Source: Roseomonas sp. E05 (GTDB taxonomy: Bacteria; Pseudomonadota; Alphaproteobacteria; Acetobacterales; Acetobacteraceae). Taken from it: a stretch of DNA of 64,000 nt. A model generated the notes under the pieces. That model had not been told where the DNA came from. It worked only from the letters and a program-made list of their open reading frames with translations, and made no database searches. The translations under genes and the position numbers were made by a program. Shown in pieces: positions 4,517-64,000 of this stretch (position 1 is the first letter of the stretch; each line of letters begins with the position of its first letter). Where the stretch lies: NCBI RefSeq assembly GCF_030063475.1, contig NZ_JASIRT010000010.1, positions 62,001 to 126,000 of the forward strand. Reading direction: 5' to 3'.

Positions 4517-4568
4517 AAAAAGATGGGGGTCCGAAGGCCCGGGGGGGAATTCCTTCCCCCGGGCTTTT
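4517..4568. terminator. Family 1 repeat arm acting as intrinsic terminator
   Basis: Directly after the permease stop comes AAAAAAGATGGGGGTCCG, then a GCCCGGGGG...CCCCCGGGC hairpin at 4537-4564 with an AATTCCTT loop region, then TTTT. This is a good intrinsic terminator for the plus-strand permease. The convergent SDR gene ends at 4581. The same A-run, GATGGGGG and GGAATTCC hairpin recurs at 13461, 30411, 54733 and 61346, so it is one arm of a dispersed repeat family. Confidence 0.7.
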
Positions 4569-6988: not shown

Positions 6989-8412
6989 TCAGACGGCGGT
7001 GCCGCCGATGGTCAGGCCGGTCATCTTGAGCGTCGGCTGGCCGACGCCGACCGGCACGCCCTGGCCCTGCTTGCCGCAGGTGCCGATGCCGGGGTCGAGC
7101 GCCATGTCGTTGCCGATCATGGTGACGCGGGTCAGCGCCTCCGGCCCGTTGCCGATCAGCATGGCGCCCTTCACCGGGGCGCCCACCTTGCCATCCTCCA
7201 CCAGATAGGCCTCGGACATCGAGAAGACGAACTTGCCGGAGGTGATGTCCACCTGCCCGCCGCCGAAGTTCACGCCCCAGATGCCGCGCTTGACGCTGCG
7301 CAGGATCTCCTCCGGGTCCTTGTCGCCGCCGAGCATGACGGTGTTGGTCATGCGCGGCATCGGCGCATGGGCGTGGCTCTGGCGGCGGCCGTTGCCGGTA
7401 GGGGCCGTGCCCATCAGGCGCGCGTTCTGCCGGTCCTGCAGGAAGCCGGTCAGGATGCCGTCCTCGATCAGCACGGTGCGGCCGGAGGGGGTGCCCTCGT
7501 CATCCACGGTGAGGGAGCCGCGGCGGTCGGGGATGGTGCCGTCATCCACCACCGTCACGCCCGGGGCGGCGATCCGCTGGCCGAGCAGGCCGGCGAAGGC
7601 GGAGGTCTGCTTGCGGTTGAAGTCGCCCTCCAGCCCGTGGCCGATCGCCTCGTGCAGCAGGATGCCGGGCCAGCCGGGGCCGAGCACCACCTCCATCTCG
7701 CCGGCGGGGGCGGGGACGCTCTCCAGGTTCAGCACGGCCTGGCGCAGCGCCTCGTCCACCGCGCCCTTCCAGGCGGCCTCGGAGATCACGCGGTCATAGG
7801 CGAAGCGGCCGCCCATGCCATGGCTGCCGCTCTCGCGCCGCCCGTTGGCCTCGACCACCACATTGACGGAGAGGCGCACCAGCGGCCGCAGGTCGGCGAC
7901 GCGCTGGCCGTCCGGGCGGATCACCTGCACCGCCTGCCACTCGCCGGTGAGGCTGGCCATCACCTGGGTCACGCGGCTGTCGCGGCCGCGGGCATAGGCG
8001 TCGATCTCGGCCAGCAGCGCCGTCTTGGCCGGGAAGGCCATGGCGGCGAGCGGGTTGGCGTCGTCGTAGAGGCGGGCATTGGTGGCGCGCGGGCCGACCG
8101 CCAGCTTGCCGGAGCGGCCGGCGGCGACGGCGCGCACCGTGTCGGCGGCGCGGTTCAGGGCGGCCTCGGAGATCTCGCCGCCATGCGCGTAGCCGGCGGC
8201 CTCGCCCTGCACCGCGCGCAGGCCGAAGCCGCGCGTGGCGTCGAAGCTGGCGGAGCGGATGCGGCCGTCATCGAGGCTGATGGCCTCGCTCTCGACATAT
8301 TCCAGGAACAGCTCGCCATCCTCGGCGCCGGTCAGCGCGCCGGAGAGAATGCGCTCGGCGGCGCCGCGGTCGAGGTCGCGGAAGAACAGCCGGTCAGTGG
8401 TGTCGAGAGCGG

Positions 8413-16204: not shown

Positions 16205-16263
16205 GGCGGGGTCCGGGGGGATACGATCCCCCCGGCGGGGGTCCAGGGGGCAGCGCCCCCTGG
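16205..16263 (+). repeat. Family 2 double-hairpin repeat
   Basis: GGCGGGGTCCGGGG opens a GGGGGGAT/ATCCCCCC stem, then GGCGGGGGTCC leads to a second stem, CAGGGGGC AGC GCCCCCTG. It lies between the convergent M20 peptidase and the binding protein. Other copies are at 23950, 34495, 35835, 46721 and, inside a coding region, 62519. Confidence 0.65.
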
Positions 16264-16270
16264 CGCTTCC

Positions 16271-23949: not shown

Positions 23950-24009
23950 CCGGGAGGCTCCGCCTCCCGGACCCTCCGCCGGGGAGGCAACGGCCTCGCC
24001 GGACCCCGC
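23950..24009 (-). repeat. Family 2 double-hairpin repeat
   Basis: Read on the minus strand: GCGGGGTCCGGCGAGGC, a GCCTCCCCGGC partner, then GGAGGGTCC and a GGGAGGC GGA GCCTCCC stem. It starts 19 bases after the MFS stop. The rest of the 284-base gap to the next gene shows no other feature I can name. Confidence 0.6.
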
Positions 24010-24215
24010 GATCGGTTTTCCCCCGCTTCATCCGGACGCGCCTCCGGCACGCTTGCCGGCCTTCCTGCGGCAGGCCTAGGATCTGCCTGATCGACGAGGC
24101 TTCGCGCGGCCGCTTCGTGACCTGCCTCCGCCTGCGACGGCGGAGGAATGGCCGGTTGGCGGAGCGCTGGCAGAAGCGGCCGGCGGCGCTGGCGCACAGG
24201 AGGTGCCTTCGCAGG

Positions 24216-34488: not shown

Positions 34489-34494
34489 GCATGG

Positions 34495-34553
34495 CCAGGG
34501 GGCACCGCCCCCTGGACCTCCGCTGGGATGGCAGTGCCACCCCAGGCCTCGCC
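34495..34553 (-). repeat. Family 2 double-hairpin repeat
   Basis: Read on the minus strand: GGCGAGGCCTGGGGTGGC, a GCCATCCCAGC partner, then GGAGGTCC and a CAGGGGGC GGT GCCCCCTG stem. It sits between the convergent GMC oxidoreductase and MOT1 genes. Confidence 0.6.
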
Positions 34554-34596
34554 AGCAGGCCCTGAGGGGCCGGGCGGAGTGGAGCCGCCCGCGCGC

Positions 34597-35794: not shown

Positions 35795-35834
35795 CTGTGA
35801 AGTTGGCATGCCGCGTTTCCGCCCTTCCAGGGAT

Positions 35835-35902
35835 GGCGGGGTCCGGGGTGACACTGTCACCCCGGCAGGAGGGGGCCGGGGAGGGCGGCGCCCTCCCCGG
35901 GG
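35835..35902 (+). repeat. Family 2 double-hairpin repeat
   Basis: GGCGGGGTCCGGGG opens a GGGGTGAC AC TGTCACCCC-type stem, followed by a second, longer GGGGAGGGC/GCCCTCCCC stem. It ends 3 bases before the uvrB stop codon. Confidence 0.65.
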
Positions 35903-61407: not shown

Positions 61408-62160
61408 TCATGGCCGGAACCGCCGCTGATACGCCGCGCTGTAGAGGGCGCTGTCCCGGAACTCCCCCGCCGTCAGTGCCGGCCCGACCAGGATCAGCGC
61501 CGTGCGTTCCGCCGGCTCGGCGGCGAGCTTCGCCACGATATCCCCGAGCGTGCCGCGCAGGATGCGCTCATCCGGCCAGGAGGCGCGCACCACGATGGCC
61601 ACGGGGCAGCCGGCGCCATAGAGCGGGGTGAGGCTTTCGACGATCCGCCCCAGGGCGTGGACCGCCAGATGGATGGCGAGGGTGGCGCCGGTGGCGCCGA
61701 AGGCCTCCAGCGTCTCGCCCGGCGGCATGGCCGAGGCGCGGCCGGAGACGCGCGTCAGCACCACGCTCTGCGCCACTCCCGGCACCGTCAGCTCGCGCCC
61801 GAGCGCGGCGGCGGCGGCGGCGAAGGAGGGGACGCCCGGCGTCAGGGTATAGGGGATGCCGTGGCGCTCCAGGCGCCGGATCTGCTCGGCAACGGCCGAC
61901 CAGACGGAGAGGTCGCCGGAATGCAGCCGCGCCACGTCCTGCCCGGCCCGATGGGCGTGGAGGTATTCGGCCTCGATGGCGTCGAGGTCGAGCGGGGCGG
62001 TGTCCACCAGCCGGGCGCCGGGCGGGCAGTGCGCCAGCAGGGCGGGCGGCACGATGGAGCCGGCATAGAGGCAGACCGGGCAGGCGGCCAGCAGGTCCCG
62101 CCCGCGCAGGGTGATGAGGTCCGGCGCGCCGGGGCCGGCGCCGATGAAATGCACGGTCAT
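61408..62160 (-). CDS. cobM: Precorrin-4 C(11)-methyltransferase
   Basis: 250 aa. [18 protein letters not shown] opens the protein, [17 protein letters not shown] is near residue 55, and [18 protein letters not shown] near 77 is typical of CobM/CbiF. The [21 protein letters not shown] stretch (in pieces) near 105 is also kept. It methylates C11 of precorrin-4. It overlaps the cobL-cobE stop by four bases (ATGA) and is translated from the same message. Confidence 0.94.
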
Positions 62161-63788
62161 GCGTTTGGTCCTGCCGAGAGGGCGCAGGTGACGCCCTCGG
62201 CGGTGATGCGCGGCAGCACCAGCGCACCGCCCGCCGCCAGGGCGCAGCCCTCGGCGACGGAGGCGATGCCGGTGGTGCGCAGGGCCGCTTCGGAGCGGGT
62301 GGGGCAGCGGTCCTGCACGGCAAGCAGCGCGGCGTGGTCGAGGAAGACGAGCTCCACGCCGAGGGCGGATGCCGCCTCGGCAAGGGCGGGAAGGTCACGG
62401 CGGAAGGCGGGGGCGGCGAGGCGGCCGACGCGCAGGCCGGACAGCGTCTCGGCGCGGCGGACCAGGGCGGCGATCGCTTCCGCGGAGGCCGAAGGGCGCA
62501 GGCCGATGCCCGCCGTGGCCAGGGGAGCGCCGCCCCCCTGGACCCCCCGCCGGGGAGACAGGGTCTCCCCGGACCCCGCCACCGGCTTTTCCACGGCGTA
62601 TTGCGTCACCGTCATCGCGGGGCGATAGCCGTGGAAGCCGCCGATGCGGTCCAGGCGCTCGATGCCGATCCGCGTCAGGCTGCCACCCCAGCGGGACTGG
62701 GCGGCGATGAGGGCGGCCTCGGTCTCCAGGGTCACGGCATTGGCCACGAGGCGGCCGCCGGGGCGCAGCGCCGTCCAGGCGGCGTCCAGCACGCCCTCGC
62801 CGCTGGCGCCGCCGCCGAGAAACACCGCGTCCGGCGCGGGAAGGCCGGCAAGGCCCTCCGGTGCGGCCGACGGCACCACCCGCAGCCCGGGCACCCCCAG
62901 CGCCAGCGCGTTGCGGGCGGCGCGGGCGGCACGATCCGCCCGCGGTTCCAGGCCGATGGCGCGGTTGGCGGGGTGACGCAGCATCCACTCGACCGCCACC
63001 GAACCGCTGCCGCAGCCGATGTCCCAGAGCAGTTCGCCCTGGCGCGGGGCGAGCGCCGCCAGCGTGATGGCCCGCACTTCCCGCTTGGTGATCTGGCCGT
63101 CCTGCTCGAAGCAATCCTCGGGCAGGCCCGGGGTGAGCGGGATGGCCCTGGCGCCGGGGCCGGGGATGACCTCCAGCGCCAGCAGGTTCAGCGGGTCAGG
63201 GGCGAGGCCGAAGGCCTCGGCGGTGGTCGTGCGGTGGCGGGCGCGGGGACCGCCCAGGGCTTCCAGCAGATGGAGCCGCGTCGGGCCGAAACCGTACCGC
63301 GTGAGCAGCGCGGCGACAGCGGCGGGGGTGGTGGCATCCGCGGAAAGGGCCAGCAGGCGCGCGCCGGGCTGCAGCAGCGGGAGAAGCGGCTCCAGCGGGC
63401 GGCCGCAGAAGGAGAGCGTGGTGCAATCCTGCATCGCCCAGCCCAGCCGGGCGCAGGCCAGGGCGAAGGCGGAGGGCGCAGGGAGGCAGAGCAGCTCCCC
63501 GGGCGGGATGTGCCGGGCCAGGGTGGCGCCGATGCCGAAGCAGAAGGGGTCGCCCGAGGCCAGCACCGCCGTCGGCTGGCCGCGCCGGGCGAGCAGGGCG
63601 GGGAGACCGTCCAGCATCGGGCTGGGCCAGGGAAGCGCGGTGCCGCGGATCAGCGGCGCGGCGAGCGCCAGGTGCCGCTGGCCGCCGAACACCGTCCCGG
63701 CGGCCGCGAGCAGCGTGGCGGCGGCGGGGGAGAGGCCCTCGACGCCGTCCTCGCCGATGCCCAGGATGGAAAGCCAGGGAGCGCTCAT
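62157..63788 (-). CDS. cobL: CobL-CobE fusion: precorrin-6Y methyltransferase/decarboxylase joined to CobE
   Basis: 543 aa from the ATG at 63788. Residues 1-200 are the CbiE-like methylase ([33 protein letters not shown]). Residues 215-400 are the CbiT-like methylase/decarboxylase ([20 protein letters not shown]). A 22-residue Gly/Pro/Arg linker follows (about 403-424), then a CobE domain ([20 protein letters not shown], about 428-543). CobL methylates C5 and C15 and removes the C12 acetate carboxyl; CobE is a small protein of the same pathway. The linker is encoded by a family 2 repeat that is intergenic elsewhere. Confidence 0.9.
62519..62580 (-). repeat. Family 2 double-hairpin repeat, inside the cobL-cobE reading frame
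   Basis: Read on the minus strand: GGCGGGGTCCGGGG, a GGGGAGAC CC TGTCTCCCC-type stem, GGCGGGGGGTCC, then CAGGGGGGC, GGC, GCTCCCCTG. It matches the copy at 16205 in order and spacing. It contains no stop in the cobL frame and has kept the frame, so it is translated. Confidence 0.75.
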
Positions 63789-63799
63789 CGTGGGGGAAT

Positions 63800-64000
63800 A
63801 TGCGGGTTCTGCTGCTCGGGGGAACAACGGAAGGCGCCGCGCTGGCCCGCGCCCTGGCGGGGAATTCCCGCGTCCGGGCGAGGCTGTCCCTCGCCGGGGC
63901 CACCCGCGCGCCGCGCCCGCAGCCGCTGCCGACGCGGATCGGCGGCTTCGGCGGGGTGGCGGGGCTGGTGGAGTACCTGCGGGCGGAGTGCATCGGCGCG
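63800..64000 (+). CDS. cobK: Precorrin-6A reductase CobK (partial, N-terminus)
   Basis: 67 codons from the ATG at 63800 to the window edge. The start MRVLLLGGTTEGAALARALA is typical of CobK/CbiJ, and the later IGGFGGVAGLVEYLRAE matches the GGFGG...GLxxYL pattern near residue 50. It reduces precorrin-6A with NADPH. Its start is 11 bases from the divergent cobL-cobE start. Confidence 0.88.
   Translation, partial: MRVLLLGGTTEGAALARALAGNSRVRARLSLAGATRAPRPQPLPTRIGGFGGVAGLVEYLRAECIGA

Follow-up and report, generated by a model that had tools for sequence, protein, structure and literature searches.

A Dispersed Double-Hairpin Repeat Encodes the Linker of a CobL–CobE Fusion in One Clade of a Pseudoroseomonas-Type Genus

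In the 64,000-nucleotide stretch of Roseomonas sp. E05 DNA analyzed here (the window), CobL and CobE are encoded by a single reading frame, and the segment that joins them is a copy of a palindromic repeat that elsewhere in the window lies between genes. The locus raises the question of whether this repeat created the fusion or entered a gene that was already fused, and of what has kept its base pairing intact inside coding sequence.

Results

The Fused Gene and Its Linker

The features of the locus and the related repeat copies in the window are as follows, with the orientations of the four intergenic copies given relative to the cobL frame.

62157..63788, minus strand: fused cobL-cobE gene, 543 amino acids, ATG at 63788; the same fusion is found in 12 species of the genus
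62583..63788, minus strand: CobL part, from TIGR02467 and TIGR02469 matches and alignment; its end is the conserved Lys401-Pro402
62160..62522, minus strand: CobE part, from the CbiG C-terminal domain (PF01890) starting at residue 425 and from junction comparison
62519..62581, minus strand: translated copy of the double-hairpin dispersed repeat, encoding linker residues 403-422; family-profile match
62550..62572, minus strand: hairpin 1 of the linker copy, 10-bp stem and 3-nt loop
62519..62541, minus strand: hairpin 2 of the linker copy, 10-11-bp stem
16205..16264, plus: intergenic repeat copy, profile match
23952..24021, minus: intergenic repeat copy, diverged, profile match
34492..34554, minus: intergenic repeat copy, profile match
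35834..35901, plus: intergenic repeat copy, profile match

One minus-strand frame stays open from 63788 to 62160, straight across the repeat, and joins CobL (CbiE plus CbiT) to CobE (CbiG_C); the TTG at 63827, further upstream, could also serve as the start. The original prediction had the two parts meeting at the repeat, and the domain matches place them there: the CbiE-like match (TIGR02467, residues 8-193) and the CbiT-like match (TIGR02469, residues 232-353) both end before the linker, and PF01890 begins just behind it. The CobE part aligns with the start of free-standing CobE, the ancestral (M)IVAGIG reading LATAGIG here. AlphaFold2, run on 11 fused proteins, gave a moderate model (mean pLDDT 65.5) in which residues 404-421 are among the lowest-confidence positions and are predicted as coil, flanked by strands of CobL (392-400) and CobE (423-430). 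This predicted pattern is as expected of a flexible linker.

The Linker Is One Copy of an Abundant Intergenic Family

The 62 bases that encode the linker had been read as a copy of the double-hairpin repeat, an identification whose extent proved accurate and which is supported by both the family profile (nhmmer, E 1.5e-11 within the searched sequence) and a covariance model (E 4.7e-9 against the whole genome). Likewise, the intergenic copies predicted at 16205, 23950, 34495 and 35835 were recovered at 16205, 23952, 34492 and 35834. The element consists of two tandem hairpins over ~60 bp with the consensus TGGCGGGGTCCGGGGTGACACTGTCACCCCGGCGGGGGTCCAGGGGGCGGCGCCCCCTGG, starting with GATGGCGGGGTCC and ending with CCCCTGGCC. 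In the linker copy, hairpin 1 is CCGGGGAGAC-ccu-GUCUCCCCGG and hairpin 2 is near-perfect; the folding energy of the linker RNA (z -1.15) is not unusual for its composition. No part of the window matched Rfam 15 at gathering thresholds.

The genome holds at least 101 copies (the best 150 candidates were scored). By a census that used a simple coding model, 98 of the 99 distinct copies with known context lie between genes, the cobL-cobE copy alone being crossed by a coding frame. L098 and L122, two further copies flagged as partly coding, were rejected after inspection placed both between genes. Matches to the linker peptide do occur in other open reading frames (L068, L070 and L071). Many copies are paired in inverse orientation, GATGG end toward GATGG end, with spacings from 10 bases up to a few hundred (L104 2013-2135; L119 2006-2124; L157 1415-1566; L113 2011-2172; L183 1520-1682; L140-L143 near 8000-8250), an arrangement that resembles composite or REPIN-type units.

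cobL and cobE in Relatives

Comparison of close relatives, which the original prediction had proposed, covered all 18 genomes of the genus that have cobL. The two genes are separate in six. Three of these (G001, G002 and G014) have the genes overlapping by four bases, GTGA/ATGA, and in the family members examined cobL and cobE are likewise separate and often overlap in this manner. In the other three (G003, G007 and G008), 170-466 bases lie between the genes, and this spacer starts and ends with another palindromic repeat, of the GGGGGAAGGAATTCCCCC type. The presence of a different repeat at the same boundary supports the boundary as a tolerated target. The GGGGGAAGGAATTCCCCC-type repeats make up a second dispersed palindromic family, with L062, L013 and L016 being the cobL/cobE junctions of G003, G007 and G008, and further members in the window at 4544, 13361, 30324, 42457, 54748 and 61380.

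The remaining 12 genomes, all of one clade, have a fused single frame. Among the matches listed for 299 genomes sampled across the family, there was no other CobL-CobE fusion of this kind. GC-rich hairpins are prone to sequencing errors, and a missed stop or frameshift could in principle mimic a fusion of two genes; in these 12 independent assemblies, however, every junction is open and in register, which makes such an artefact very unlikely, to the point of being negligible.

Eight of the 12 (G000, G013, G005, G006, G010, G016, G011 and G012) carry the double hairpin, in each case at the same base position, in the same orientation and in the same junction frame. The other four (G018, G015, G004 and G009) are fused without it, and their linkers are different and shorter, although that of G018 retains both element ends (ATGG...CCCCCTTGGC). 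The original prediction had named relatives with the same fusion and an unrelated linker as evidence that would tell against it; taken literally, these four are such relatives, with later loss the most fitting reading for three of them, as discussed below. At-least copy counts per genome are 6-139 in the carriers versus 0, 3, 5 and 11 in the fused noncarriers, a difference with an exact P of 0.008 among species that are not independent of one another. Across related species, copy number ranges from 0 in G009, in whose genome no copy was found, to at least 139 in G006.

A Rare Hairpin Variant Indicates a Single Ancestral Insertion

The eight element-bearing junctions could stem from one insertion or from several independent ones that struck a single favored site in a gene fused since the ancestor. 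The GGGGGAAGGAATTCCCCC-type repeats of G003, G007 and G008 would fit a boundary that is repeatedly targeted, but identity of base position, orientation and junction frame in 8/8 carriers speaks against repeated events, as do the hairpin sequences themselves. An A-T at pair 7 of hairpin 1 is found in the linkers of G000, G005 and G016, which belong to three lineages, versus 4 of 158 intergenic copies in the genus (P about 8e-4 on the assumption of independently drawn linkers), and its combination with an outer T-A pair, present in the G005 and G016 linkers, occurs in 0/158. Moreover, the G016, G005 and G000 linkers differ from each other by 1-3 bases versus a mean of 4.5-4.8 from the copies of their own genomes, a pattern expected if a single linker copy was inherited vertically. 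Rare variants thus unite these three linkers across lineages and set each apart from the copies of its own genome, which indicates, on this sequence evidence, that the element at cobL/cobE derives from a single ancestral insertion; we regard independent insertions as highly improbable.

Conversion from genomic copies could have homogenized the linkers. Those of G006, G010 and G016 do have the CCT loop seen in the copies of their own genomes. The G000 linker differs from its own genome in this respect: the CCT loop occurs in 3/84 G000 copies, and this rarity implies that homogenization of linkers by conversion is at most partial. In the G006/G010/G016 subclade, hairpin-1 loops begin with C (CCT, CGT or CGC) in 34/34 sampled copies, whereas elsewhere they are mostly ACT or ACG, a pattern of lineage-wide homogenization of a subfamily.

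Phylogeny and the Order of Fusion and Insertion

If insertion was a single event, the fusion may still be the older of the two: a short linker, as in G009, G004 and G015, would have arisen through a small indel within the GTGA overlap, and the element would later have entered this already tolerated linker. Four fused genomes indeed have element-free linkers, and G009, whose genome yielded no copy at all, is basal among the fused genomes in some trees. The trees otherwise point the other way. Fused genomes form one group in multigene trees. In cobalamin-gene trees, the element-free G018, with its element-end remnants, is nested among carriers as sister to the element-bearing G005 (100% support), and in the cob-gene tree without cobL and cobE, G015+G004 is also nested, as sister to G000+G013 (100%). 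A tree that adds rpoC, ileS and uvrA agrees with the cobalamin-gene trees. With rpoC, ileS and uvrA alone, G009 and not G015+G004 falls beside G000+G013, but the proteins of this three-gene tree include some out-of-gene sequence at their ends and it does not settle the place of G009. A first tree was discarded because cobA paralogues had been included for five genomes.

Deep nodes of the fused clade are poorly supported (22-74%) in every tree, and the possible basal position of G009 has support of 25-43%. The rare hairpin variants, in turn, imply that the ancestor shared by G000, G005 and G016 already had the element. Collectively, these data suggest that G018, G015 and G004 probably lost the element secondarily from an already fused gene, while G009 could preserve a fusion that predates the repeat. 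A fusion that preceded the element is possible, though we think it doubtful.

Base Pairing Is Kept Inside Coding Sequence

In the eight translated copies, 98.8% of hairpin-1 cells are paired, with 10 double changes at three pairs, and the covariation score was reached by 0/500 shuffles and 0/6 shifted controls. Hairpin 2 varies in length and sequence among these copies, and its pairing is nearly complete. In G000, the reading frame through part of hairpin 2 departs from that of the relatives and returns to register ahead of CobE. Amino acid change in the linker is 18% versus 4-5% in the flanking domains between G016 and G010, and 47% versus 12-15% between G000 and G013; this contrast of 3-4 times, seen in the two closest pairs tested, fades in more distant pairs. 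At the level of the alignments, frame and pairing are conserved, and the linker peptide sequence less so.

Retention of pairing while the residues change this fast in the two closest pairs is what functional hairpins would produce, whether by slowing ribosomes between the domains, stabilizing the transcript or binding a protein, and such a role would be compatible with an origin of the fusion by insertion. However, intergenic copies are equally well paired (99%), so that special selection in cobL-cobE is not needed to explain the pairing and a general palindrome-maintaining process suffices. In addition, G018, G015 and G004 are still fused without the element, and linker divergence is not raised in the more distant pairs. 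A function of the hairpins at this locus appears unlikely.

Discussion

How the Fusion May Have Arisen

Insertion of the repeat at the cobL/cobE stop/start overlap is well supported by the comparison of genomes, and we prefer the reading in which the fusion arose through this very insertion. The ~60-bp element would have entered the 4-base overlap between AAGCC(G) and TGATCGTC in the ancestor of a single clade within this Pseudoroseomonas-type genus. An insert that is 1 mod 3 long and free of stops would remove the cobL stop and bring cobE into frame in one step. Selection may then have retained the fused frame, with the encoded peptide tolerated as a flexible spacer, and the pairing of the palindrome may have been upheld via template-switch correction of quasi-palindromes, conversion from genomic copies or selection on an mRNA hairpin. 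In lineages whose genomes hold few copies of the family, the copy in the linker would in most cases have decayed into unrelated linker sequence without loss of the fusion. We know of no transposase for the double-hairpin element.

One-step fusion is feasible for 28 of 45 measurable copies, whose length fits and whose frame is stop-free. When element sequences were shuffled at constant length, nearly as many (52%) would still join the genes, which implies that the site matters more than the element and that the element has no special fusing ability. An alternative course, in which the element inserted directly after the cobL TGA and one T was then lost, was dropped: many copies of the element themselves begin with GATGG/CGATGG at the 5′ end, so that a missing T cannot be deduced.

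Overall, we consider it rather probable that the repeat, landing in the overlap, made a CobL-linker-CobE fusion that was subsequently kept, with losses of the element. The two-part statement that one event created a two-enzyme fusion that spread through the clade and that pairing is still actively maintained, by conversion, quasi-palindrome correction or selection, seems to us evenly poised between holding and failing. In the original prediction, the repeat created the fusion. Its observational part stands, with separate overlapping genes in relatives and the repeat exactly there in 8/8 carriers, while causation goes beyond these observations; "well supported, order of events open" fits better than the "clear case" that had been claimed.

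Relation to Known Palindromic Elements

As a kind of event, translated palindromic repeats are not new, as Rickettsia palindromic elements (RPEs) and intragenic REPs are already established. RPEs are short dispersed elements that occur in intergenic DNA and also, translated in frame, inside protein genes whose products tolerate them (Ogata et al. 2000, 2002; PMC2229807, PMC10969869); the double-hairpin element is similarly found both intergenic and translated in frame. RPEs are 105-150 bp, interrupt single genes and are translated at many sites per genome (PMC2229807, PMC10969869), whereas the element here, likened to them by description, is ~60 bp, has two tandem hairpins and is translated in 1/99 copies, at the junction of a two-gene fusion.

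GTAG/CGTC-tagged REPs are 20-40-bp palindromes of high copy number, located mostly behind genes and often in inverted pairs; some lie inside open reading frames, and location in flexible linkers has been suggested for such inserts (PMC3733652). The double-hairpin repeat resembles them in being short, palindromic, abundant and nearly always intergenic, but its unit comprises two different hairpins and it occupies a fusion boundary. Neither a GTAG nor a CGTC tag is present at the element ends, and no RAYT transposase (Y1_Tnp, PF01797) was found in 18 of 19 genus genomes, G006 having one short weak match near the cutoff. Because it lacks both the tag and a convincing RAYT in the genus, we describe the element as REP-like and do not class it as a REP.

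ERIC/RU and Correia/NEMIS elements are small mobile sequences fused in frame to genes, of MITE type with terminal inverted repeats (PMC2229807, PMC2759123); the double-hairpin element is likened to them for its in-frame position in a gene, and its own ends are only approximate. Nematomorpha mitochondrial genes contain perfect inverted repeats of up to 284 bp inside coding sequence (PMC6649704), a likeness in placement, and they are not reported there as a dispersed intergenic family at a fusion. Within the open-access literature, we found no report of a CobL-CobE fusion and none of a repeat serving as the junction of a two-gene fusion that is conserved in a clade with later losses. Translated palindromic elements are thus known, and the novelty here lies in one that stands at the point where two genes have fused.

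The genus provides a natural series of separate genes, genes fused with the element and genes fused after element loss, in which a noncoding repeat can be followed as it becomes the linker of an enzyme. In addition, inside coding sequence the palindrome has held its pairing even as the peptide it encodes changes between close relatives, and this opens the process of repeat maintenance to testing.
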